This document shows positions 1,751 to 16,745 of a DNA stretch of 56,960 nt, piece by piece (positions within the stretch are counted from its first letter, which is position 1; each line of letters starts with the position of its first letter). The position numbers and the translations under genes were made by a program. The stretch spans positions 1 through 56,960 of the forward strand of contig JALSLC010000014.1 in NCBI GenBank assembly GCA_026988525.1. Reading direction: 5' to 3'. A model generated the notes under the pieces. That model saw only the letters and a list, made by a program, of their open reading frames with translations, searched no databases and was not told the DNA's origin. Source of the DNA: Archaeoglobaceae archaeon. Lineage in GTDB: Archaea > Halobacteriota > Archaeoglobi > Archaeoglobales > Archaeoglobaceae.

Positions 1751-2956
1751 TTATTCCACTCCCCTCATTCTCTCATTTCTTATCCTCTCAATCTCAGCCT
1801 TGAGCAATTCAATCTCCCTCTGCATTCCCATGAAGAACTTGATGAACTGTGGATTTGTCAGCTCATTTAACGCTTCATTCTTCCTTCTTTCCCACTCCTC
1901 TATTTCTTGAATTGCTTCCTCTGTCAACGGCAATCCACAACGAGAGCAGAACCTTGATGTAGCTGGATTAACCATCATGCAGCGGGGACACTGCTTAACT
2001 TCCAAATCCTTGTTATTGTTGTTCGTCTTTATTCCGTGCATTCTTAAAATGGCTTCATCAACATCTTCGCTTGCTAAATGCACATAGATACCAACCATCT
2101 TGCTTCCATTAACCCAGTCCATGTACTTGGCTCCAATTGATTCTGGAACCTTCGCAAGCAACCTTGTAGCCCTTGTGTGCCTGAAGAGGTGTGGATAGAT
2201 TCTCTTCTTTATTCCCGCCCTCTTTGCAATCTTCCTTATCTGTGCATGCAAATCCTTGTAGACCATTGGCTGTAAAGCTTTGCTGCCAGAAAGCTTAATC
2301 CATAAAGCTGCTTCAGGATTGTCCTTCAGTGGATGGTCAGAAAGCCACTCTGAAAGATACCTTGCTGAATAAACAATTCTTAGCTTCCTTCTAACAGTTT
2401 TGCTCTTCGGTAACCAGATTATTGCTCCATATTCGTCGAATGAAACATCCTTTACCCTCATCGAACCAATTTCTCCAATTCTTGCTCCAGTTTCATAAAG
2501 CAGAGATATTATTGCTCTATCCCTTGAGTTCATACATGTTTTTAGCATTGCCTCAAATTCCTCTTCTGTGATAAGATCTTGGGGCGTAACCTTGGTCTCC
2601 ACGTTCTTTAAAGAAAACCAGTTTACAATCTCTTCTTTCTCAAGCCATTTAAAGAACTTCTTTAATGTCTTCTTAACTTCCTCAAAAGAATTTTCAGTTA
2701 TCCTTTCATGATCCATTTCAGCTTTAAAGTGATTGATTGCCCTTCTAACATCCTTTTTATCCCATTCGTCAATTCTCTTATCGACAGCCTTCAGCAGCCT
2801 CCTCAACCATAGCAGATAGGAGTACAGTCTGTGGACACTCAACCCTTCAGCCAGCATATCCTCTACAAAATCCTCTATAACCGCATAGCTTTCAGGATGT
2901 TCTTCTTTCAGCAGTTCAAGCTGTCTTCTGTAGTACTTGTCGGCTGAGTGAAACAT
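1751..2956 (-). CDS. Tyrosine recombinase/integrase with C-terminal zinc ribbon
   Basis: The 401-residue protein has an N-terminal SAM-like core-binding domain (about 10-120) and a tyrosine-recombinase catalytic domain. The visible catalytic set is Arg159 (TGARIGEIG), His256 and Arg259 (HLFRHTR) and Tyr291 (GIYVHL). After the catalytic domain come a zinc ribbon (CPRCMMVN...CSRCG, residues 323-340) and a charged helix of about 60 residues likely to form a coiled coil. Such enzymes integrate, excise or resolve circular DNA. It lies upstream of and in tandem with the Orc1/Cdc6-like gene, with no gap. The pair looks like the replication and integration core of a mobile element; chromosomal XerA is the alternative. 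Confidence 0.9.
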   Translation of the reverse strand: MFHSADKYYRRQLELLKEEHPESYAVIEDFVEDMLAEGLSVHRLYSYLLWLRRLLKAVDKRIDEWDKKDVRRAINHFKAEMDHERITENSFEEVKKTLKKFFKWLEKEEIVNWFSLKNVETKVTPQDLITEEEFEAMLKTCMNSRDRAIISLLYETGARIGEIGSMRVKDVSFDEYGAIIWLPKSKTVRRKLRIVYSARYLSEWLSDHPLKDNPEAALWIKLSGSKALQPMVYKDLHAQIRKIAKRAGIKKRIYPHLFRHTRATRLLAKVPESIGAKYMDWVNGSKMVGIYVHLASEDVDEAILRMHGIKTNNNNKDLEVKQCPRCMMVNPATSRFCSRCGLPLTEEAIQEIEEWERRKNEALNELTNPQFIKFFMGMQREIELLKAEIERIRNERMRGVE

Positions 2957-3083
2957 CTGTAATTTGTTTTCTTTGCCATATTTTACTTTAGACCCCTTTC
3001 TGAAAGTCGAATGGGTGTTGAACTCGAAGTCGGTACGCCCACCCCCGGCGTAAACACTTCATTATCTTCTTCAATCTAAATTA
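2957..3083. other. GC-rich junction between the recombinase block and the AT-rich chromosome
   Basis: No gene was found. Around 2985-3055 the sequence is unusually GC-rich for this window and holds an imperfect palindrome CTTTCTGAAAG (about 2995-3005). GGGTG (about 3013) could pair with CACCC about 22 bases downstream. From about 3060 rightwards the DNA becomes strongly AT-rich. The position next to a tyrosine recombinase makes this a candidate attachment site or element edge, but I could not find a matching direct repeat elsewhere in the window. Confidence 0.35.
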
Positions 3084-3173
3084 GTTAAATCGATTTACTT
3101 CCAAAAACTTTAAATATAGGGTAAATATTAGTTTACCTAAGTATAGTTAAATTTACCTCAGGAGGTGTTTCAC
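3084..3173 (+). promoter_or_regulatory. Promoter with tandem palindromes for the small-protein/ArsR operon
   Basis: A 12-base perfect palindrome TAAATCGATTTA lies at 3086-3097. A TATA-like box TTTAAATATA is at about 3109-3118. It is followed by an inverted repeat GGTAAA-N6-TTTACC at 3120-3137 and another ATTTACC half-site at 3151-3157. A strong Shine-Dalgarno AGGAGGTG (3160-3167) precedes the ATG at 3174. Palindromes flanking the TATA box and the likely transcript start are what an autoregulating ArsR-type dimer would bind. That link to the downstream regulator is inference. Confidence 0.65.
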
Positions 3174-3350
3174 ATGCCATTACCCCCCGGAATGGATTTT
3201 GTAGATTGGATATTTTGGTTGTTTGTTTTGTTAGTATTTTGTGCTGGAGCAGTTCTATTCATCAAAATGCTGTTTACCGAGCAAACTAACAAAGATGATG
3301 AAGTAATGAGAGAACTTCTAAACGAAATAAAAAACTTAGAATTGAGATAG
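3174..3350 (+). CDS. Small single-span membrane protein with interrupted C-terminal coiled coil
   Basis: I chose the ATG at 3174 because AGGAGGTG ends six bases before it; a GTG at 3165 lies inside that ribosome site. The 58-residue product has one hydrophobic helix (WIFWLFVLLVFCAGAVLFIK, about residues 12-31) and a charged tail that begins a heptad pattern (ELLNEIKNLEL) before a TAG at 3348. In the -1 frame the heptads continue through IEELRKELRE to a TAA at 3377-3379, one base before the ArsR gene. An A6 run (ATA AAA AAC, about 3328-3336) lies just upstream. The gene may therefore be frameshifted, misread in the A-run, or recoded. Function unknown. Confidence 0.7.
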   Translation: MPLPPGMDFVDWIFWLFVLLVFCAGAVLFIKMLFTEQTNKDDEVMRELLNEIKNLELR

Positions 3351-3380
3351 AAGAACTTAGAAAAGAATTGCGAGAATAAC

Positions 3381-3677
3381 ATGTGTACAGCTGAGGATCT
3401 TGCGGAAACTTTGAAAATATTGGCAAATCCAATAAGATTAAAAATTTTAGCTCTTTGTATGGAAGAAAAAAGCAGTAGAGAGCTTAGAGAAATGCTTAAT
3501 ATATCTAAACCACTTCTTATAAACCATATAAAAAAACTCATAAACTTAGGATTTCTTGAAGTTAGAGTAGAGATAGATGAAGAAAGAATGACAATTAAAA
3601 AAATTTACAAGACTAAAAATTTTAAAGTAGTTATAGATAAGGCAACTTTGGAAAAAATTAGGCTAAAAATGAATTAA
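3381..3677 (+). CDS. ArsR-type winged-helix transcriptional regulator
   Basis: The 98-residue protein is a classic ArsR-like winged helix. It has an N-terminal helix with LANPIRLKILALC, the recognition segment SRELREMLNISKPLLINHIKKL (cited here only as a helix pair at about 35-55) and a beta wing with basic residues. It follows the small membrane protein with only a weak ribosome site, so translation is probably coupled to the upstream gene. There are few cysteines, so I cannot call it a metal sensor. The palindromes upstream of the operon are likely its operator. Its last 20 bases overlap the end of the convergent radical SAM gene. Confidence 0.85.
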   Translation: MCTAEDLAETLKILANPIRLKILALCMEEKSSRELREMLNISKPLLINHIKKLINLGFLEVRVEIDEERMTIKKIYKTKNFKVVIDKATLEKIRLKMN

Positions 3678-5259
3678 CAAGCTTAAATGACTCTCCACAC
3701 TCTCTTTTTAATATTTTTAAAAGTTCATCTTTTTTCTTGCCTTTATTCCTCTCCATCAATATTTTTCTTGCAATCTTTTTACCTATACCCGGAATTGCTT
3801 CTAACTCTTTTAAATCTGCTTTCTCTAAATCAATTGGTTTAATTGCAGTTACAGACCTCATACCATATCCAGTGACTTTCACATCCAAATACGTATTTTT
3901 TTCAAATTTTCCTATAATACCTACTATTAAAGGATAACTTCCAAACTGTCTGCCAAAAGTTATTCCTTTCTCATAAACTTCGCATCTAACATCTTTTAGA
4001 GTTGTGCCAATAGGCAAGATCTTTTCCAGCATTTTACGGTCTATATTTTCTCGCACTAATTTTTTAAATGTTAAAAAATATTTTCTGTGTTTTTTCAACC
4101 TTTTTTCAACTTCCCTCTTTTCTGAAAATAAAGGTGTATATCTGAGCACTTTTACCTGCCTTATATTTATCCTCCTAAGTAAGAGGTTTTTTTCCAGCAA
4201 TTTATTGAGGAATTCGTAGTTTTTTTCAAAAGTTCTCTTAGTTTCACCTCTTAAACCTATGACAAAGTTCAATCCCGGTAGAAAAGCGGGCATTCCGTTG
4301 TGACCTCTAATAGATCCATACTTATTTATTAGCTCAATAGCAAACTCAACATCATCAACATCCGAACAAAGATTATTCTCCTTTATTACTTTTTTATCTG
4401 CACTCTCCAAACCCATTGCCGCTACGTTTCCGGGAGTTTGATATTCTACTATAATCTTTACTAATTTTTCACTCTCCATAGGATATTCTGCTATTGTTTT
4501 TGGATTTATATTATCTAAATGTAAAGTTTTTATTTCAGGACAGTTTTTCCATATTGCTTTATGAAAAGATAGCATTTTTTCTGGATTTGGCTTAGGCACT
4601 TCTCTTGAGAAATCAGCCATGTAAGTTAGAAAATCGGTTTGTCTGCCAAGTCTAAAATGTCTTATTCCATGATTGTATAAAACCTCAATCTCTTTTAAAA
4701 CGCATTTAGCACTTCTTTGCCTGACTTTGTGCAATCTTTCCATACAAAACGAACACTTTCCCCAGTAACAGCCTCTATAAGTTTCTATTTCACATATTAA
4801 ATGGGGATATTCAGGATGCTCTTTTACAACCTCACTTCCAAGTATTACGAACTTTTCAAAGTTATTCCAGAAATTCACCTCTTTTTTTAGTTTTCTTAGT
4901 AGTTTTTCTTCAAATGGGTAGTCGATTACGTTAAGAAGCTCTATTTCTCTATCCTCAAGTTCAAGAGCAAGCCCACCAACTACTATTTTTTCTCCGGGAA
5001 GTAAATTTATTTCCTCTAAGCTTAGTGGTTTGGAACTAAGATACTTTCCGGGAACTATTGCACCAGCTATTACTATTGAGAAGTCAAATTTTTCTAAAAT
5101 TGAGGGGTTTTCTCTAACTTGATCGGCAGTAAAATACTTGGATGGAATCTGTAGATAATTTAACATTCCCTTTATATATCTTGGATACGGTGAAATATAG
5201 GGGGGTACTCCAAGACAAGATGGTTCATCAACATAGCCATCAACTATTGCAACTTTCAT
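3658..5259 (-). CDS. Radical SAM protein with C-terminal helix-hairpin-helix (COG1031 type)
   Basis: This 533-residue enzyme has an N-terminal domain resembling a B12-binding fold, then a radical SAM core with the cluster motif RGCYWGKCSFC. The cysteine spacing is CX4CX2C rather than the common CX3CX2C. It is followed by RHFRLGRQTDFLTY and then a small beta domain. The C-terminus carries a helix-hairpin-helix (AIPGIGKKIARKIL, about 490-503) that usually contacts nucleic acid. This arrangement matches a conserved archaeal family whose reaction is not known to me; RNA modification is plausible from the domain mix but is inference. It overlaps the upstream nucleotidyltransferase by four bases, so the two are probably cotranscribed. 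Confidence 0.85.
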   Translation of the reverse strand: MKVAIVDGYVDEPSCLGVPPYISPYPRYIKGMLNYLQIPSKYFTADQVRENPSILEKFDFSIVIAGAIVPGKYLSSKPLSLEEINLLPGEKIVVGGLALELEDREIELLNVIDYPFEEKLLRKLKKEVNFWNNFEKFVILGSEVVKEHPEYPHLICEIETYRGCYWGKCSFCMERLHKVRQRSAKCVLKEIEVLYNHGIRHFRLGRQTDFLTYMADFSREVPKPNPEKMLSFHKAIWKNCPEIKTLHLDNINPKTIAEYPMESEKLVKIIVEYQTPGNVAAMGLESADKKVIKENNLCSDVDDVEFAIELINKYGSIRGHNGMPAFLPGLNFVIGLRGETKRTFEKNYEFLNKLLEKNLLLRRINIRQVKVLRYTPLFSEKREVEKRLKKHRKYFLTFKKLVRENIDRKMLEKILPIGTTLKDVRCEVYEKGITFGRQFGSYPLIVGIIGKFEKNTYLDVKVTGYGMRSVTAIKPIDLEKADLKELEAIPGIGKKIARKILMERNKGKKKDELLKILKRECGESFKLVNSFLA

Positions 5260-10264: not shown

Positions 10265-12652
10265 ATGGATATAAACATTGGTAATGGCATAATCATAGAC
10301 GAACTGAGAAACATAACTATTAAAATTGGAGATATTGTTGATGAAGAAGCCTTAAGAGATGAAGAATGGGAAGAGTTGGGTCCTACACCTAAGCCACACA
10401 TTCTCGATTTAAGATATTGGGATAGAAAACTTTTAAGTCGTTATGAACCCATATACATGCCTGTTCAGGATTTTTGTAATCTTTGTACAATGGGCCCATG
10501 TGAATTAACTGGGAATAAGGAAGGAGCTTGCGGAATTGATCTAAGAACACAAAAAGCCAGGATGGTAACCATAGCTTGTTTAATAGGAGCTTCAGCTCAT
10601 GCAACTCATGCAAGGCATTTAGTACACTATCTCATAGAGAAATTTGGTAGAGACAAACCAATTGATTTGGGGCCTGATATAGATATCGAAGCTCCCAACA
10701 TAAGACTTGTGTTGGGTATAAAGCCTAAGACTATTGGAGATTTAGAAAAAGTTTTGAATTACGTAGAGCAGGAATTGGTTAGAGTTTTACATACAATACA
10801 CACTGGGCAGGAGGAAGATTACATAGATTTTGAGTCAAAAGCATTACATGTAGGTATGCTTGATCACGTTGGAATGGAGGTTGCAGATATAGCACAGATA
10901 GTTGCGTTTAATTATCCTAAGGGTGATCCAGACGCTCCTTTAATAGATGTGGGATTTGGAGTTCTTGAATCTGAAAAACCAATTATACTTGTTATAGGTC
11001 ATAATATACTTCCAGCCAGAAATATTGATGATTACTTAAGAGAACATGGATTGGAAAACAAAGTTGAAATAGCTGGTTTGTGTTGTACAGCTATAGATAC
11101 TTCTCGTTATGATCCAAGAGCTAAGGTTGTTGGAACTTTAAGTTATGAGTTGAGAGCTATAAGATCGGGAATTCCTGACGTTGTGGTCACTGATGAACAG
11201 TGTATAAGAGCTGACACACTGAGAGAGTGTGCTAAAATGGGAATACCACTTATAGCGACTTCTGAAGCTGCTGCAAGAGGTTTAATAGATAGAACCGAGG
11301 ATGATCCAGATGAAATTGTTAGAGATCTCGTTTCTGGAAACGTGAAGGGTGTTTTAATAAGGGATCCAGACAAAGTTGGAGAAGTAGCTGTTAAAGTGGC
11401 TATGAATGTTTACAAAAATAGAAAAAGCCCCATATATATGAGTGATGAGGAACTTGAGGATCTTGTTGATAGATGTACAATGTGTATGAACTGTGTTTTT
11501 GCCTGTCCTCACAACCTGAGAATAGATAGAGCAATGGAATTAGCAAAATCTGGGGATTATAGCTATTTTGAAATAATTGAGGATACTTGTTTGGCTTGTG
11601 GAAGGTGTGAGCAGGCTTGTCCAAGAAATATTAGGATTGTAGATGTTATAATGAAAGCTGCTTACAAGCATATAAGAGAAAAAACGGGTAAAATGAGGGC
11701 TGGAAGAGGACCAATAAAAGACACTGAAATAAGAAAGGTCGGTCAGCCAATAGTTATGGGAACTATTCCGGGAGTAATAGCCCCAATAGGCTGTCCAAAC
11801 TATCCTAAGTCAAGAAAAGAAGTTTCAGAAATTATAGAGGAATTTCTAAAAAGAAAGTATATTGTCGTTACTACCGGTTGTCACGCAATGGATCTTGGAA
11901 TGTATAGAGATGAAGAGGGAAAAAGCTTATATGAAAAATATCCCGGCGTTTTTGATGCTGGTGGATTAGTTAATTGTGGTAGTTGTGTATCTAATTCTCA
12001 CATAACTGGAGCTGCAATAAAAATTGCGGCAATTTTTGCTCAAAGAAAACTCAGAGGAAATTACGCTGAAATAGCCGATTATATTTTACACAGAATAGGT
12101 GCTGTTGGTCTTGCTTGGGGGCCGTACAGTCAGAAAGCAGCGAGTATTGCTACTGGGTTTAATAGACTTGGAATACCAGCAGTTGTTGGACCTCACGGTT
12201 CAAAGTACAGGAGAGGATACGTTGGAAAGCTGTGGAAAAAAGATAAATGGTGGGTTTATGATATAAAAACTAAGAAGAAGATGGAAATTGAACCCTGCCC
12301 GGATTGTTTGTTGGTTGTAGCTGAAACTAAGGAGGAGGCAATAGTTCAATTAGCAAGATTATGTCTAAGGCCGGGAGACACTTACATGGGTAGGCAAATT
12401 AAACTAACACATTACATAGAATTAAGCGAAAAGTACCTTGGTTGCCTACCGGATGATTGGCATTTGTATGTTAGAACTGAGATGGACTTACCAACAAAAA
12501 TGAAGGATAGGCTTTTAAAAATTTTAGAAGATGAACATGGCTGGAAAATAGATTGGAGTAAAAAGAAGATTTTAGAGGGGCCTATTAGAAAGTATGATGC
12601 CGGATTTAATCCGACTATTGTAGAGCATGTTTATGATAAGTACGTAAGGTGA
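10265..12652 (+). CDS. cdhA: ACDS complex alpha subunit, carbon monoxide dehydrogenase CdhA
   Basis: CdhA interconverts CO2 and CO at a nickel-iron-sulfur C-cluster, feeding CO to acetyl-CoA synthase. The 795-residue protein shows the cysteine set for the B and D clusters (C71, C74, C79, C89: CNLCTMGPC...ACG) and two ferredoxin-type 4Fe-4S motifs (CTMCMNCVFACP near 404, CLACGRCEQACP near 441) that are specific to the archaeal form. C-cluster segments such as GLCCTA and VNCGSCVSNSH follow. Length is normal. It is the first gene of the operon and runs four bases ahead of cdhB. No catalytic residue appears lost. Confidence 0.98.
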   Translation: MDINIGNGIIIDELRNITIKIGDIVDEEALRDEEWEELGPTPKPHILDLRYWDRKLLSRYEPIYMPVQDFCNLCTMGPCELTGNKEGACGIDLRTQKARMVTIACLIGASAHATHARHLVHYLIEKFGRDKPIDLGPDIDIEAPNIRLVLGIKPKTIGDLEKVLNYVEQELVRVLHTIHTGQEEDYIDFESKALHVGMLDHVGMEVADIAQIVAFNYPKGDPDAPLIDVGFGVLESEKPIILVIGHNILPARNIDDYLREHGLENKVEIAGLCCTAIDTSRYDPRAKVVGTLSYELRAIRSGIPDVVVTDEQCIRADTLRECAKMGIPLIATSEAAARGLIDRTEDDPDEIVRDLVSGNVKGVLIRDPDKVGEVAVKVAMNVYKNRKSPIYMSDEELEDLVDRCTMCMNCVFACPHNLRIDRAMELAKSGDYSYFEIIEDTCLACGRCEQACPRNIRIVDVIMKAAYKHIREKTGKMRAGRGPIKDTEIRKVGQPIVMGTIPGVIAPIGCPNYPKSRKEVSEIIEEFLKRKYIVVTTGCHAMDLGMYRDEEGKSLYEKYPGVFDAGGLVNCGSCVSNSHITGAAIKIAAIFAQRKLRGNYAEIADYILHRIGAVGLAWGPYSQKAASIATGFNRLGIPAVVGPHGSKYRRGYVGKLWKKDKWWVYDIKTKKKMEIEPCPDCLLVVAETKEEAIVQLARLCLRPGDTYMGRQIKLTHYIELSEKYLGCLPDDWHLYVRTEMDLPTKMKDRLLKILEDEHGWKIDWSKKKILEGPIRKYDAGFNPTIVEHVYDKYVR

Positions 12653-13141: not shown

Positions 13142-14638
13142 ATGGCGGAGAGAAAAAAAGTAGAAATTCCGGAAAACGTTAAAGTTAAAGTTAGTGAAGG
13201 TGAGGAGTACGATTTTCCTGTAGATATATCTCCAATGCATGAGGGTGAAAGAATAAGAAAGGGAGAGATGTACGTAGAGTTAGCCGGGCCAAAGCAACCG
13301 GGATTTGAGCTTGTTATGGCATTACCTGAGGATCAGGTAGAAGATATGAAAGTTACAATCGTAGGTAAAGATTTAGATGAACTTGAAGAGGGCAAAGCTC
13401 ATCCTTTTGCCATGATTTACTATGTTGCAGGAGAAAAGATAGACACAGATCTTGAACCAATAATAGAAAGAAGAAATCACGACTTCCAAAACTACATAGA
13501 GGGTGTTATGCATCTAAACCAGAGATACGACGTTTGGATTAGAGTAGGTAAAAAAGCTGTAGAAAAAGGTTTGAAAAGCCTTGCGACTATTGCAAAAGCA
13601 GTAATGCTTTTGTTTAAGAATGAAATGCCGTTTATTGAGAAAATAGAGGCTGTTTATGCAACTGACAGGGAATTTGTAGAAAAAACACTTAAAGAAGTAG
13701 CAATGCCAATATATGAGGAGAGAGATGCAAGAGTTGAATCCTTACATGATGAGGATGTTGAAGAATTCTATTCTTGTACGTTGTGTCAAAGTTTTGCTCC
13801 ATCTGATGTTTGCATAATAAGTCCAGATAGACCATCTTTATGTGGTGCAATAACTTGGTTTGATGGAAGAGCCGCCGCAAGAGTAGATCCAGAGGGGCCA
13901 AATAAAGCGGTTCCGAAAGGAGAGATAATTGATCCGATTGGCGGGGAGTATTCTGGAGTTAATGAATTTGCAAAAAACGAGAGTGGAGGCGTGACTGAAA
14001 GAATAAAATTACACAGTTTTCTTGAATATCCACACCCATCTTGTGGGTGTTTTGAAGTAATTGGATTCTACATGCCAGAAGTAGATGGAATAGGGTGGAT
14101 TCATAGGGGGTATCCTGAACCTGCACCAAACGGTCTTACTTTTTCAACAATGGCTGGTCAGACTGGTGGTGGAAAACAGGTAGTTGGATTTCTTGGGATA
14201 GGTATAAGCTACTTCAGGAGTAAGAAGTTCATTCAAGCTGATGGAGGATGGTATAGAGTAGTTTGGATGCCAAAAGAATTGAAGCAGAAAGTTTTGCAGT
14301 ATATACCTGAAGATATGAGAGATAAAATAGCTACGGAGGAAGATGCAAAAACTATGGAGGAACTTAAAGAATTCTTAAAAAGGGTTGATCATCCCGTAGT
14401 TAAAGGTGTTGTTAGACCAGTTGATGGTAAAAAGATAACTGAAGGGTGGTTGGAAGAGAAAGAGGAAGAAACAGAAGAAGAAGTTGAAGAAGAAAAAGTT
14501 GAACAACAACCCACTCAGCCAATGGAGTTTATGCAACTATCCCAGCTACAACCTCAGTCATTACAACCTGTAATAAAGTTAACTATAAAAAATGCTACAA
14601 TAAAAATTGATAAAATAATAGTCAAAAAGAAGGAGTGA
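13142..14638 (+). CDS. cdhC: ACDS complex beta subunit, acetyl-CoA synthase CdhC
   Basis: CdhC joins CO, a methyl group and CoA to acetyl-CoA at the nickel A-cluster. The ATG at 13142 is preferred because AGGTGA ends five bases upstream; a TTG at 13124 would add six residues. The 498-residue protein carries CTLCQSFAPSDVC and the CGA and PHPSCGCFE cysteines that build the A-cluster, then NGLTFSTMAGQTGGGKQVVGF. After about residue 430 there is an acidic Glu-rich linker, a Gln/Pro/Met-rich stretch and a basic amphipathic tail (KLTIKNATIKIDKIIVKK). The tail is echoed by the next tiny gene. Confidence 0.97.
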   Translation: MAERKKVEIPENVKVKVSEGEEYDFPVDISPMHEGERIRKGEMYVELAGPKQPGFELVMALPEDQVEDMKVTIVGKDLDELEEGKAHPFAMIYYVAGEKIDTDLEPIIERRNHDFQNYIEGVMHLNQRYDVWIRVGKKAVEKGLKSLATIAKAVMLLFKNEMPFIEKIEAVYATDREFVEKTLKEVAMPIYEERDARVESLHDEDVEEFYSCTLCQSFAPSDVCIISPDRPSLCGAITWFDGRAAARVDPEGPNKAVPKGEIIDPIGGEYSGVNEFAKNESGGVTERIKLHSFLEYPHPSCGCFEVIGFYMPEVDGIGWIHRGYPEPAPNGLTFSTMAGQTGGGKQVVGFLGIGISYFRSKKFIQADGGWYRVVWMPKELKQKVLQYIPEDMRDKIATEEDAKTMEELKEFLKRVDHPVVKGVVRPVDGKKITEGWLEEKEEETEEEVEEEKVEQQPTQPMEFMQLSQLQPQSLQPVIKLTIKNATIKIDKIIVKKKE

Positions 14639-14644
14639 TTGTTT

Positions 14645-14713
14645 ATGAAAATTGAACTTAAAGGTGCAAAAATATACGTGGAGAAAATAGTCTTTAAAAA
14701 GAAAAAGAGGTGA
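14645..14713 (+). CDS. 22-residue peptide resembling the C-terminal tail of CdhC
   Basis: A 23-codon frame starts at ATG 14645, with the strong ribosome site AGGAGTGA at 14631-14638 overlapping the cdhC stop. Its product (MKIELKGAKIYVEKIVFKK plus KKR) aligns along its full length with the CdhC tail (IKLTIKNATIKIDKIIVKK). Lys, Ala, Ile and the terminal Lys cluster sit at the same places. Its TGA overlaps the GTG at 14710 that could start cooC. A tandem duplication of the tail is the simplest origin. It may be a separate partner strand for an ACDS subunit or a translation-coupling leader. Function is inferred only. Confidence 0.6.
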   Translation: MKIELKGAKIYVEKIVFKKKKR

Positions 14714-15480
14714 TAGCTATACTAATCGCTGTTACTGGTAAAGGGGGTACTGGAAAAACTTTGGTTTCTGCTATGTTGGTTCTCCATTTATGTAAAAAAG
14801 GTAGCTTACTTGCTGTAGATGCGGATCCCGACTCAAATTTGCCTGAGGCATTTGGAGTTGAAGTTGAGAGAACTCTCGGGGATATTAGAGAAATTTTTCA
14901 AAGTAGTAGAGATGAGATAAAAGGTGATAAAGAAATTTGGTTTGAAGCAAAAATTTTTGAAGTAGTGAAGGAATTAGACAATTTCGATTTACTTGTTATG
15001 GGTAGGCCGGAGGGAGAAGGTTGCTACTGCTATACTAACAACATACTTAGGGCAATACTGAAAAAGTTCATGAGGCACTATGATTTTGTTGTAGTTGATT
15101 GTGAAGCTGGATTGGAGCATTTCAGTAGGAAGACAATTGCAGGTGTTAACTACTTAATAGTTGTGTCTGATACTTCAAGAAAGGGGCTTAGAACAGCAGA
15201 GAGAATATCAGAACTCATGGAAGAATTAAACATCAATGCAAGAAAAGGGTTAATAGGTAATAAAGTTATAGATAAAAGATCGGAAAATTTAATTAGAGAA
15301 TTCGCTGAAAATTCAGGATTCAAGTTTCTTGGTTCACTCCCCTACGATGAAAAAGTTGTTGAATGTGAAATGATGGGCAAAAGCGTTGTAGATTTGATGA
15401 AAACTAACTGCAGTTTTGTTAGGGAGTTTGAAAAGATTGTTAAAAACTTAGAATCATGGGTGGTTTTATGTCAAAGTTAA
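14710..15480 (+). CDS. cooC: CODH maturation ATPase CooC (MinD/ParA family)
   Basis: CooC is a nickel-binding P-loop ATPase that helps insert nickel into CODH. The protein shows the deviant Walker A AVTGKGGTGKT at its start, AVDADPDSNLPEAF (Asp of the switch region) and the Cys pair in GCYCYTNN typical of CooC nickel sites. The GTG at 14710 gives 256 residues and overlaps the stop of the tiny upstream gene. However, GAGGTGA (14707-14713) sits five bases before an ATA at 14719, whose product would begin like family members just ahead of IAVTGKGG. No ATG or TTG is available in this stretch. It is transcribed within the cdh operon. Confidence 0.95.
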   Translation: MIAILIAVTGKGGTGKTLVSAMLVLHLCKKGSLLAVDADPDSNLPEAFGVEVERTLGDIREIFQSSRDEIKGDKEIWFEAKIFEVVKELDNFDLLVMGRPEGEGCYCYTNNILRAILKKFMRHYDFVVVDCEAGLEHFSRKTIAGVNYLIVVSDTSRKGLRTAERISELMEELNINARKGLIGNKVIDKRSENLIREFAENSGFKFLGSLPYDEKVVECEMMGKSVVDLMKTNCSFVREFEKIVKNLESWVVLCQS

Positions 15481-16745
15481 CTTTTGAGGATATACTCAAA
15501 TTACTATCAAAGTACAACATAGAGGAATTAGAGGGTGTGGAAATAGAGGGCGATATTGAAATTGAGATAGAAGGCCTTCCAAACTTGCAGGCAATAGGTA
15601 TGGAACTTGGTATGGCTGCGTACCATCTTGCAAGAGCAGCTATGATGCTCGGATTTCCGTTTCAACAGCTTTTGCAACCTCAAAAACCAATTGAAGTAAA
15701 ACAAAAAGAAGAGGAGTTAGAGTTAATAAAAAAGAAGTTTGAACCATACAAAGTTGAATGGAGCGGGTATGTCGAGGAGGTACAACTTGGTGCTACCAAG
15801 AAAGATGGTGGGACGAGAGATTATGTAATAAAGCTTGGTGGAGAGAAAAGTTTACCTTTCTACATATTTGATTCAGAACAACCAAATTTACCAGCAATTT
15901 CCATAGATGTATTTGATAGGCCTGTTCCATTACCAAAAGTAGTTAGAATGCACTACGAGGATGTTATGGAAAACCCAGAAGATTGGGCAAAAAAAGTCGT
16001 AAAAGAGTTTAATGCTGATGCAGTTACAATACACTTGATAAGTACCGATCCGCTCTTAGATGACACTCCTGTAAATGAAGCTGTGAAAGTAGTTGAAGAC
16101 GTTCTTCAAGCTGTTAAATGCCCTATAATTGTTGGAGGTAGTGGTAATAAGGAAAAGGATCCAATTTTACTTGAAAAAGTGGCTGAAGTGGCAGAAGGTG
16201 AAAGAGTTCTACTTGCAAGTGCTACCCTTGATATGGACTGGGAAAGAATTGGAAGAGCTGCAAAAGAACACAATCATGTTGTTTTAGCCTGGACTCAAAT
16301 GGACATAAACAGCCAGAGAACTTTAAATAGATATTTATTAAAGAAAGTTGGTTTACCAAGAGATAGTCTTGTTATGGATCCAACTACAGCAGCTCTCGGT
16401 TACGGTTTGGATTATGCATTTTCAAATATGGAGAGAGCAAGGATTGCTGCTTTAAAAGGTGATGAGGATTTAGCATTTCCTGTTTCGAGTGGGACAACAA
16501 ATGCGTGGGGTGCAAGAGAAGCATGGATGAAAGAATCTCCTCTTGAAGGAGATTCTTCATGGGGTATGAGAGAGCATAGAGGCCCCCTTTGGGAGATAGT
16601 TACTGGCTTAACTTTGGCTCTTGCTGCTGTTGATATATTTATGATGATGCATCCAGTGAGCGTTGCAGTATTGAAGGAGTTAATTCAAACTCTTGGAGGA
16701 AAGAAAGAAGAGGTTGAATGTGAGGATTGGATAGCGGTGGTTTGA
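15468..16745 (+). CDS. cdhD: ACDS complex delta subunit CdhD (corrinoid protein small subunit)
   Basis: CdhD is the TIM-barrel partner of CdhE in the corrinoid iron-sulfur protein that carries the methyl group between tetrahydro(sarcina/methano)pterin and CdhC. I chose ATG 15468 because GGTGG lies just upstream; ATG 15456 would add four residues. The 425-residue protein has an acidic, strand-rich start (GVEIEGDIEIEIEG), then the barrel with PIIVGGSGNKEKDP, SATLDMDW, VMDPTTAALGYGLDY and GTTNAWGARE. It overlaps the cooC end by 13 bases and shares TGATG with cdhE, so translation is tightly coupled. Confidence 0.97.
   Translation: MSKLTFEDILKLLSKYNIEELEGVEIEGDIEIEIEGLPNLQAIGMELGMAAYHLARAAMMLGFPFQQLLQPQKPIEVKQKEEELELIKKKFEPYKVEWSGYVEEVQLGATKKDGGTRDYVIKLGGEKSLPFYIFDSEQPNLPAISIDVFDRPVPLPKVVRMHYEDVMENPEDWAKKVVKEFNADAVTIHLISTDPLLDDTPVNEAVKVVEDVLQAVKCPIIVGGSGNKEKDPILLEKVAEVAEGERVLLASATLDMDWERIGRAAKEHNHVVLAWTQMDINSQRTLNRYLLKKVGLPRDSLVMDPTTAALGYGLDYAFSNMERARIAALKGDEDLAFPVSSGTTNAWGAREAWMKESPLEGDSSWGMREHRGPLWEIVTGLTLALAAVDIFMMMHPVSVAVLKELIQTLGGKKEEVECEDWIAVV

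Follow-up and report, generated by a model that had tools for sequence, protein, structure and literature searches.

A 22-residue gene between cdhC and cooC in Archaeoglobaceae that resembles the CdhC tail and probably represents a second type of the same module

Introduction

Small accessory subunits are familiar parts of enzyme complexes, and a very short protein encoded in the operon of its complex is a known kind among them. The micro-gene described here, M, encodes 22 residues in an archaeal ACDS operon and has the same 18-residue module as the C-terminal extension of the archaeal acetyl-CoA synthase (CdhC; TIGR00316, NF003379; PDB 9c0s, 9c0t). This extension is about 75 residues long, was not resolved by cryo-EM and has a function given as unknown, and it has been proposed to act when ACS swings between CODH and CFeSP (PMC11474084). 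Literature searches gave no mention of the M peptide, and on the CdhC extension they gave only the statement that its function is unknown.

M differs from the CdhC extension in being a separate gene without a linker, and in having G at position 7 of the module where the tail has N or D. It also differs from small accessory subunits in general, since it belongs to the module family of the catalytic subunit's own end, and covalent and free forms of this module alternate between lineages. Other archaea encode free modules of two types, T1 and T2, which are free like M and lie like M between cdhC and the next gene. Both types occur in f21 and T1-like ones in f8, f9, f17 and f34; these names are working labels, not taxonomic names, and a single phylum was searched. 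T2 of f21 is like M in lying directly before cooC and in having G at position 7 and often E at position 14. These free proteins are unlike M in their length of 50–105 aa, their N-terminal KLKLK stretch and their Ala/Pro-rich linker, and their loci are unlike the window in that CdhC ends in a winged-helix-like domain instead of the tail.

Results

The window, by which we mean the whole stretch of 56,960 nucleotides that was analysed, is contig C14 of an Archaeoglobaceae genome whose nearest named relatives are MAGs of the same family, and has an ACDS operon in the order CODH alpha-like gene, cdhB, cdhC, M, cooC-like ATPase gene, cdhD and cdhE-like gene (Table 1). The frame of M can be read directly from the sequence: AGGAGTGA at 14631–14638, six bases, ATG at 14645, 22 codons and TGA at 14711–14713, in agreement with the initial annotation, which had described a strong ribosome site six bases before the ATG. 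That annotation had also matched M from end to end with the last 21 residues of CdhC at about 9 identities, and alignment with these residues (IKLTIKNATIKIDKIIVKKKE) does run ungapped with 9/21 identities.

Table 1. Positions of M and of the surrounding ACDS genes and modules in the window
Feature	Position	Strand	Basis
CODH alpha-like gene	10265–12652		Position and sequence features
cdhB	from 12657		Family tested
cdhC, acetyl-CoA synthase (ACDS beta subunit) with archaeal C-terminal extension	13142–14638	+	Pfam CdhC and ACS_CODH_B_C; NCBIfam TIGR00316, 2.2e-233
Tail module T, IKLTIKNATIKIDKIIVK, at the end of the CdhC extension	14573–14626	+	78 distinct forms conserved across archaeal CdhC; 40.1 bits with other-species matrix
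Ribosome site of M, AGGAGTGA, overlapping the cdhC stop	14631–14638	+	Sequence
Micro-gene M, 22 aa, MKIELKGAKIYVEKIVFKKKKR, free tail-like module	14645–14713	+	Frame, conservation, selection, matrix score, shuffles
cooC ribosome site, GAGGTGAT, including GTG 14710	14707–14714	+	Sequence; comparison across six species of the genus
cooC-like maturation ATPase, probable ATA start 14719 (annotation-style start GTG 14710)	14719–15480	+	Pfam CbiA/Fer4_NifH family P-loop protein
cdhD	from 15471		Family tested
CdhD N-terminal module D, KLTFEDILKLLSKYNIEELEGVEIEGDIEIEIE, candidate partner of the tail module	15474–15581	+	In every archaeal-type CdhD seen, not in bacterial-type; partner role putative
cdhE-like gene	from about 16745		

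The TGA of M overlaps a GTG at 14710, as had been reported. This GTG, the annotation-style start of cooC, lies inside GAGGTGA, the likely ribosome site of cooC itself, and is probably not the start. Every cooC in six species of the window's genus has this GAGGTGA (GGGGTGA in L007) with an in-frame ATA a few bases on, and in L007 an in-frame TAA directly precedes the ATA, with no ATG, GTG or TTG ahead of the P-loop. The start of cooC is probably the ATA at 14719 (window 14707–14721), a codon found at this place in all six species. Loci L008 and L028 have no obvious standard cooC start near the P-loop and may use CTG.

Our data demonstrate that the resemblance between M and the tail is far beyond chance. 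All six frames of the window were scanned with a matrix built from the CdhC tails of other species, from which the window's own tail and all M sequences had been left out; the own tail scored 40.1 bits and M 31.7 bits, and the next best place reached 14.7. None of 20,000 shuffles of M of each kind, including shuffles that preserve the hydrophobic pattern, attained the score of M with the position matrix. A combined profile found two places only in the whole genome, the CdhC tail and M; this profile includes both tail and M sequences, and the independent test is the matrix scan of the window. M fits the ACDS tail module family in its 18-residue pattern, its alternating hydrophobics and its Ala at position 8. 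M had no match in Pfam or NCBIfam, and in these libraries the free T1 and T2 proteins matched the CdhC models at their end only, with scores far under the cutoff. Homology of M to the N-terminal module of CdhD was rejected, the score being no higher than that of shuffles. Opposite charges at the ends of the tail and M were considered as a sign of pairing and discarded: GAGGAG, which encodes the acidic residues, also serves as the ribosome site of cooC, and the window's own genus does not follow the pattern.

Most Archaeoglobaceae have, between cdhC and cooC, a short frame that begins with ATG and contains the M motif, among them a Geoglobus MAG (MAEKKGEQKEQKFIKITLKGAEIKVSELIIEE) and a member of another genus (MEKEVKKIKLILVGAEIKIPEIIIEEEE), and Ferroglobus MAGs also have M; many of the loci compared are MAG fragments. 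Upstream of M, a purine-rich run resembling a ribosome site is found in 27/34 distinct copies. The initial annotation had made its reading depend on whether the frame and its ribosome site are conserved in relatives with the same gene order, and the conservation found there supports its view that M is a gene whose free peptide product is related to the tail of CdhC. A readthrough extension of CdhC is unlikely, as M has its own ATG at all 50 loci (duplicates included) and is in frame with CdhC at only 13 of them.

M is under purifying selection. For 34 distinct nucleotide cores of M, taken as independent pairs with every core used once, pN/pS was 0.22 in frame as against 1.34 and 1.60 in the shifted frames, and the differences at codon positions 1, 2 and 3 numbered 44, 23 and 104. 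This result bears on the suggestion of the initial annotation that M may be a leader for cooC translation, which in its strict form would make M a mere translated leader coupling cdhC to cooC translation, its peptide having no role. M is short, in many species its stop is no more than a few bases from the start of cooC, and its final codons also form the ribosome site of cooC, all of which fits a leader. However, the conserved residues and the low in-frame ratio place the peptide sequence itself under selection, the same motif runs across the whole family and recurs in counterpart genes of about 57–70 aa in f21, and CooC is made without M where M has been lost. Coupling as the sole role of M is thus highly improbable.

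On a CdhC tree, several deep forks of which are weak, M occurs in 34 rows with five changes required, and its history is best read as one gain followed by about four losses. M must therefore be dispensable in some lineages. Within the window's genus it is absent from 2/6 species (L005, L006) and has altered ends in others, showing that M is changing there. Taken across these genomes, M appears as an old, selected part of the ACDS operon.

The tail itself is not always part of CdhC. In 60 relatives, every strong module match is either a CdhC tail or a free module next to cdhC, and those of the 60 that have no M at the cdhC–cooC place have no copy elsewhere; in these 60 genomes the tail module is restricted to ACDS operons. 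When 393 genomes of the phylum were scanned, module matches appeared in short frames of other families. Of the 151 distinct cdhC loci, the tail is fused in 111; another 35 are unfused with a free module immediately downstream, the rest being three bacterial-type loci with neither form, one masked locus and one CdhC-like fragment; the last two, and one variant counted among the 111, were assigned by eye. In f8, f9, f17, f21 and f34, CdhC is tailless and a small gene of its own, right after cdhC, encodes the tail, the protein usually having a KLKLK-like stretch at its N-terminus, then a linker and then the module. One genome (G061) has two ACDS operons, one with a fused and one with a free tail. 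The CdhC tail is a separable module that need not be attached to CdhC, as shown by the several families in which it exists only as a free protein. E-values of the genome-wide module searches come from profiles that include some of the matches, and the central claims rest on matrices without them.

Tailless CdhC ends in a domain of roughly 45–60 residues that is winged-helix-like; one of four such ends passes the Pfam cutoff (HTH_24, 2.5e-5), and the others match weakly. These C-termini were seen in L122, L125, L174, L181 and L217, where the swap is accompanied by a free downstream gene for the tail. Outside the ACDS operon, L133 (994–1530; G000 contig C9) has a CdhC-like fragment of 178 aa whose A-cluster region is altered, and similar solitary CdhC-like frames, some with internal stops, are found across the family.

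The f21 genomes have two free-module genes in tandem before cooC. Matches were found in 38/50 genomes of f21 (10/11 genera), and 35 of the 38 have two or more, most commonly as the tandem T1/T2. With matrices built without f21 sequences, the first gene (T1, e.g. IKLILKDAKISIDKVVLA) is 7–16 bits nearer the fused CdhC tail than M, and the second (T2, e.g. MTIELRGASIHVAEVVIK) is 2–10 bits nearer M than the fused tail. In the converse scoring, 20/25 M types are nearer f21 T2 than T1, the other five being nearer T1, and none of 28 Archaeoglobi tails is nearer T2. G at position 7 is found in 23/25 M types and 16/16 T2 but in 0/78 tails, and E at position 14 in 16/16 f21 T2 and 17/25 M types. The M of the window (MKIELKGAKIYVEKIVFK) scores 25.5 bits as T2 and 20.3 as T1, and it shares G7, Leu 5 and Ala 8 with T2; it has K14, as some other M sequences do, and although this residue would suit the T1-type signature (N/D at position 7, K/R at 14), its G7 does not. 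By these residues M is a member of the wider tail module family that does not belong to the T1 type. An extra T1 gene at a second place was seen in two f21 loci, L177 (G188) and L178 (G227); in L177 it follows a cdhB-like gene with no intervening cdhC.

These comparisons suggest that M is probably an old second module type (T2) and not a recent copy of the neighbouring tail. The initial annotation regarded M as a duplicated CdhC tail, which is probably wrong given the residues that M shares with the second free module type of another archaeal family. If M had instead arisen within Archaeoglobaceae by recent duplication of the adjacent tail, with no relation to f21 T2 and a convergent G7/E14 pattern, this would account for the fact that M adjoins and resembles the tail. 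The KLKLK stretch and linker of T2 are absent from all Archaeoglobaceae M, within a genome the f21 T1 and T2 have common N-termini, and 18 residues are too few to prove orthology. We nevertheless regard a recent duplicate as doubtful, since the f21-free matrices cleanly split T1 from T2 in the direction expected if M and T2 share an origin, and since M and T2 occupy the same place, after cdhC and directly before cooC. The N-terminal stretch and linker could be a feature of f21 only. A shared origin of M and T2 is thus supported, 18 residues falling short of proof.

The N-terminal module of CdhD behaves in a similar way. Some form of it occurs in every archaeal-type CdhD that we saw and it is absent from bacterial-type CdhD; it is present wherever the tail module is present and absent where the tail module is absent. 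Free copies of it were observed in ACDS operons at L171 (2380–2595, forward strand), L166 (1030–1257) and, on the reverse strand, L167 and L125; at L171 and L167 the free copy lies beside a CdhD that retains its own module. Such copies parallel M and the tail, and in L142, a sister of L125, the copy seems decayed. In f17 (L218, reverse strand, 2034–3698) the free tail protein and the adjoining CdhD both start with KVKLKKK, which suggests another shared terminal module. Because its N-terminal module co-occurs with the tail module and has free copies, and because the KVKLKKK start is common to both proteins in f17, CdhD would be our favourite candidate partner of the tail module. AlphaFold2 models of two tandems that occur naturally in one frame, with a single stop read through in each, were uninformative on contacts: the CdhC tail plus M of L030 gave a mean pLDDT of 59 with no secondary structure, and T1 plus the D-like module of L125 a mean pLDDT of 43.6.

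Discussion

On balance, and with modest confidence, we regard M as a real small protein encoded in the ACDS operon, one that would serve in ACDS as a free assembly or tethering piece of type T2. M would be made together with CdhC and would enter the ACDS complex through a strand-rich contact like that of the tail, by pairing with the tail of CdhC, by binding on the CFeSP (CdhD/CdhE) side, or in both ways. Most economically, the tail module would dock ACS to a stable part of the complex, M/T2 being a second, free docking piece, so that M (T2) would add to the CdhC tail (T1) and not replace it. It would act in that part of the complex which allows ACS to move between CODH and CFeSP. Against this reading stand the roughly four losses of M, its lack of the N-terminal stretch and linker of T2, the K at position 14 in some M sequences, the five M types that score nearer T1, and the AlphaFold2 models with their low mean pLDDT.

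A joining role is not the only one that a free copy of a tail could have. M might instead be a competing or tuning peptide that takes up the site where the CdhC tail binds and so restricts or times ACS docking, as could be imagined for a free and short peptide that resembles the tail; lineages lacking M retain a normal tail, which would suit a tuner. However, in f21, where the tail is itself a free protein, T2 is encoded next to it in the position that M has, an arrangement that resembles two structural parts, and the class-specific residues (G7, often E14) suggest a contact unlike that of the tail. We consider a competing peptide unlikely. Joining subunits is favoured over competing with the tail because the tail exists solely as a free protein in several families, although the sequence does not decide between them.

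The position of M suggests another partner, the CooC-like ATPase, for which M would be an adaptor or docking peptide in nickel insertion into CdhC and hence would be made just before CooC. M and f21 T2 are always directly before cooC and often touch it, and this proposal draws its support entirely from gene order. Free modules without an adjoining cooC are found in L218 and L217, and cooC stays in place in lineages that lost M, which makes a service to CooC a decidedly remote prospect.

A more general model, which we put forward only tentatively, is that archaeal ACDS might be held together by a set of very short strand modules that in evolution pass from covalent to free form and back, namely the tail (T1), the free T2/M and the CdhD N-terminal module. 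ACS would then be held to CFeSP through a composite fold assembled in trans from these modules, of which M, shortened to 22 residues, would be one.

M adds a case to the very short conserved genes that library searches miss. A separable tail, together with a second type that occurs as a peptide of 22–43 residues, gives natural variants, along with a minimal peptide with which binding could be tested directly, and M in this way offers a route to learning what the unmodelled tail of a carbon-fixing ACDS enzyme does.
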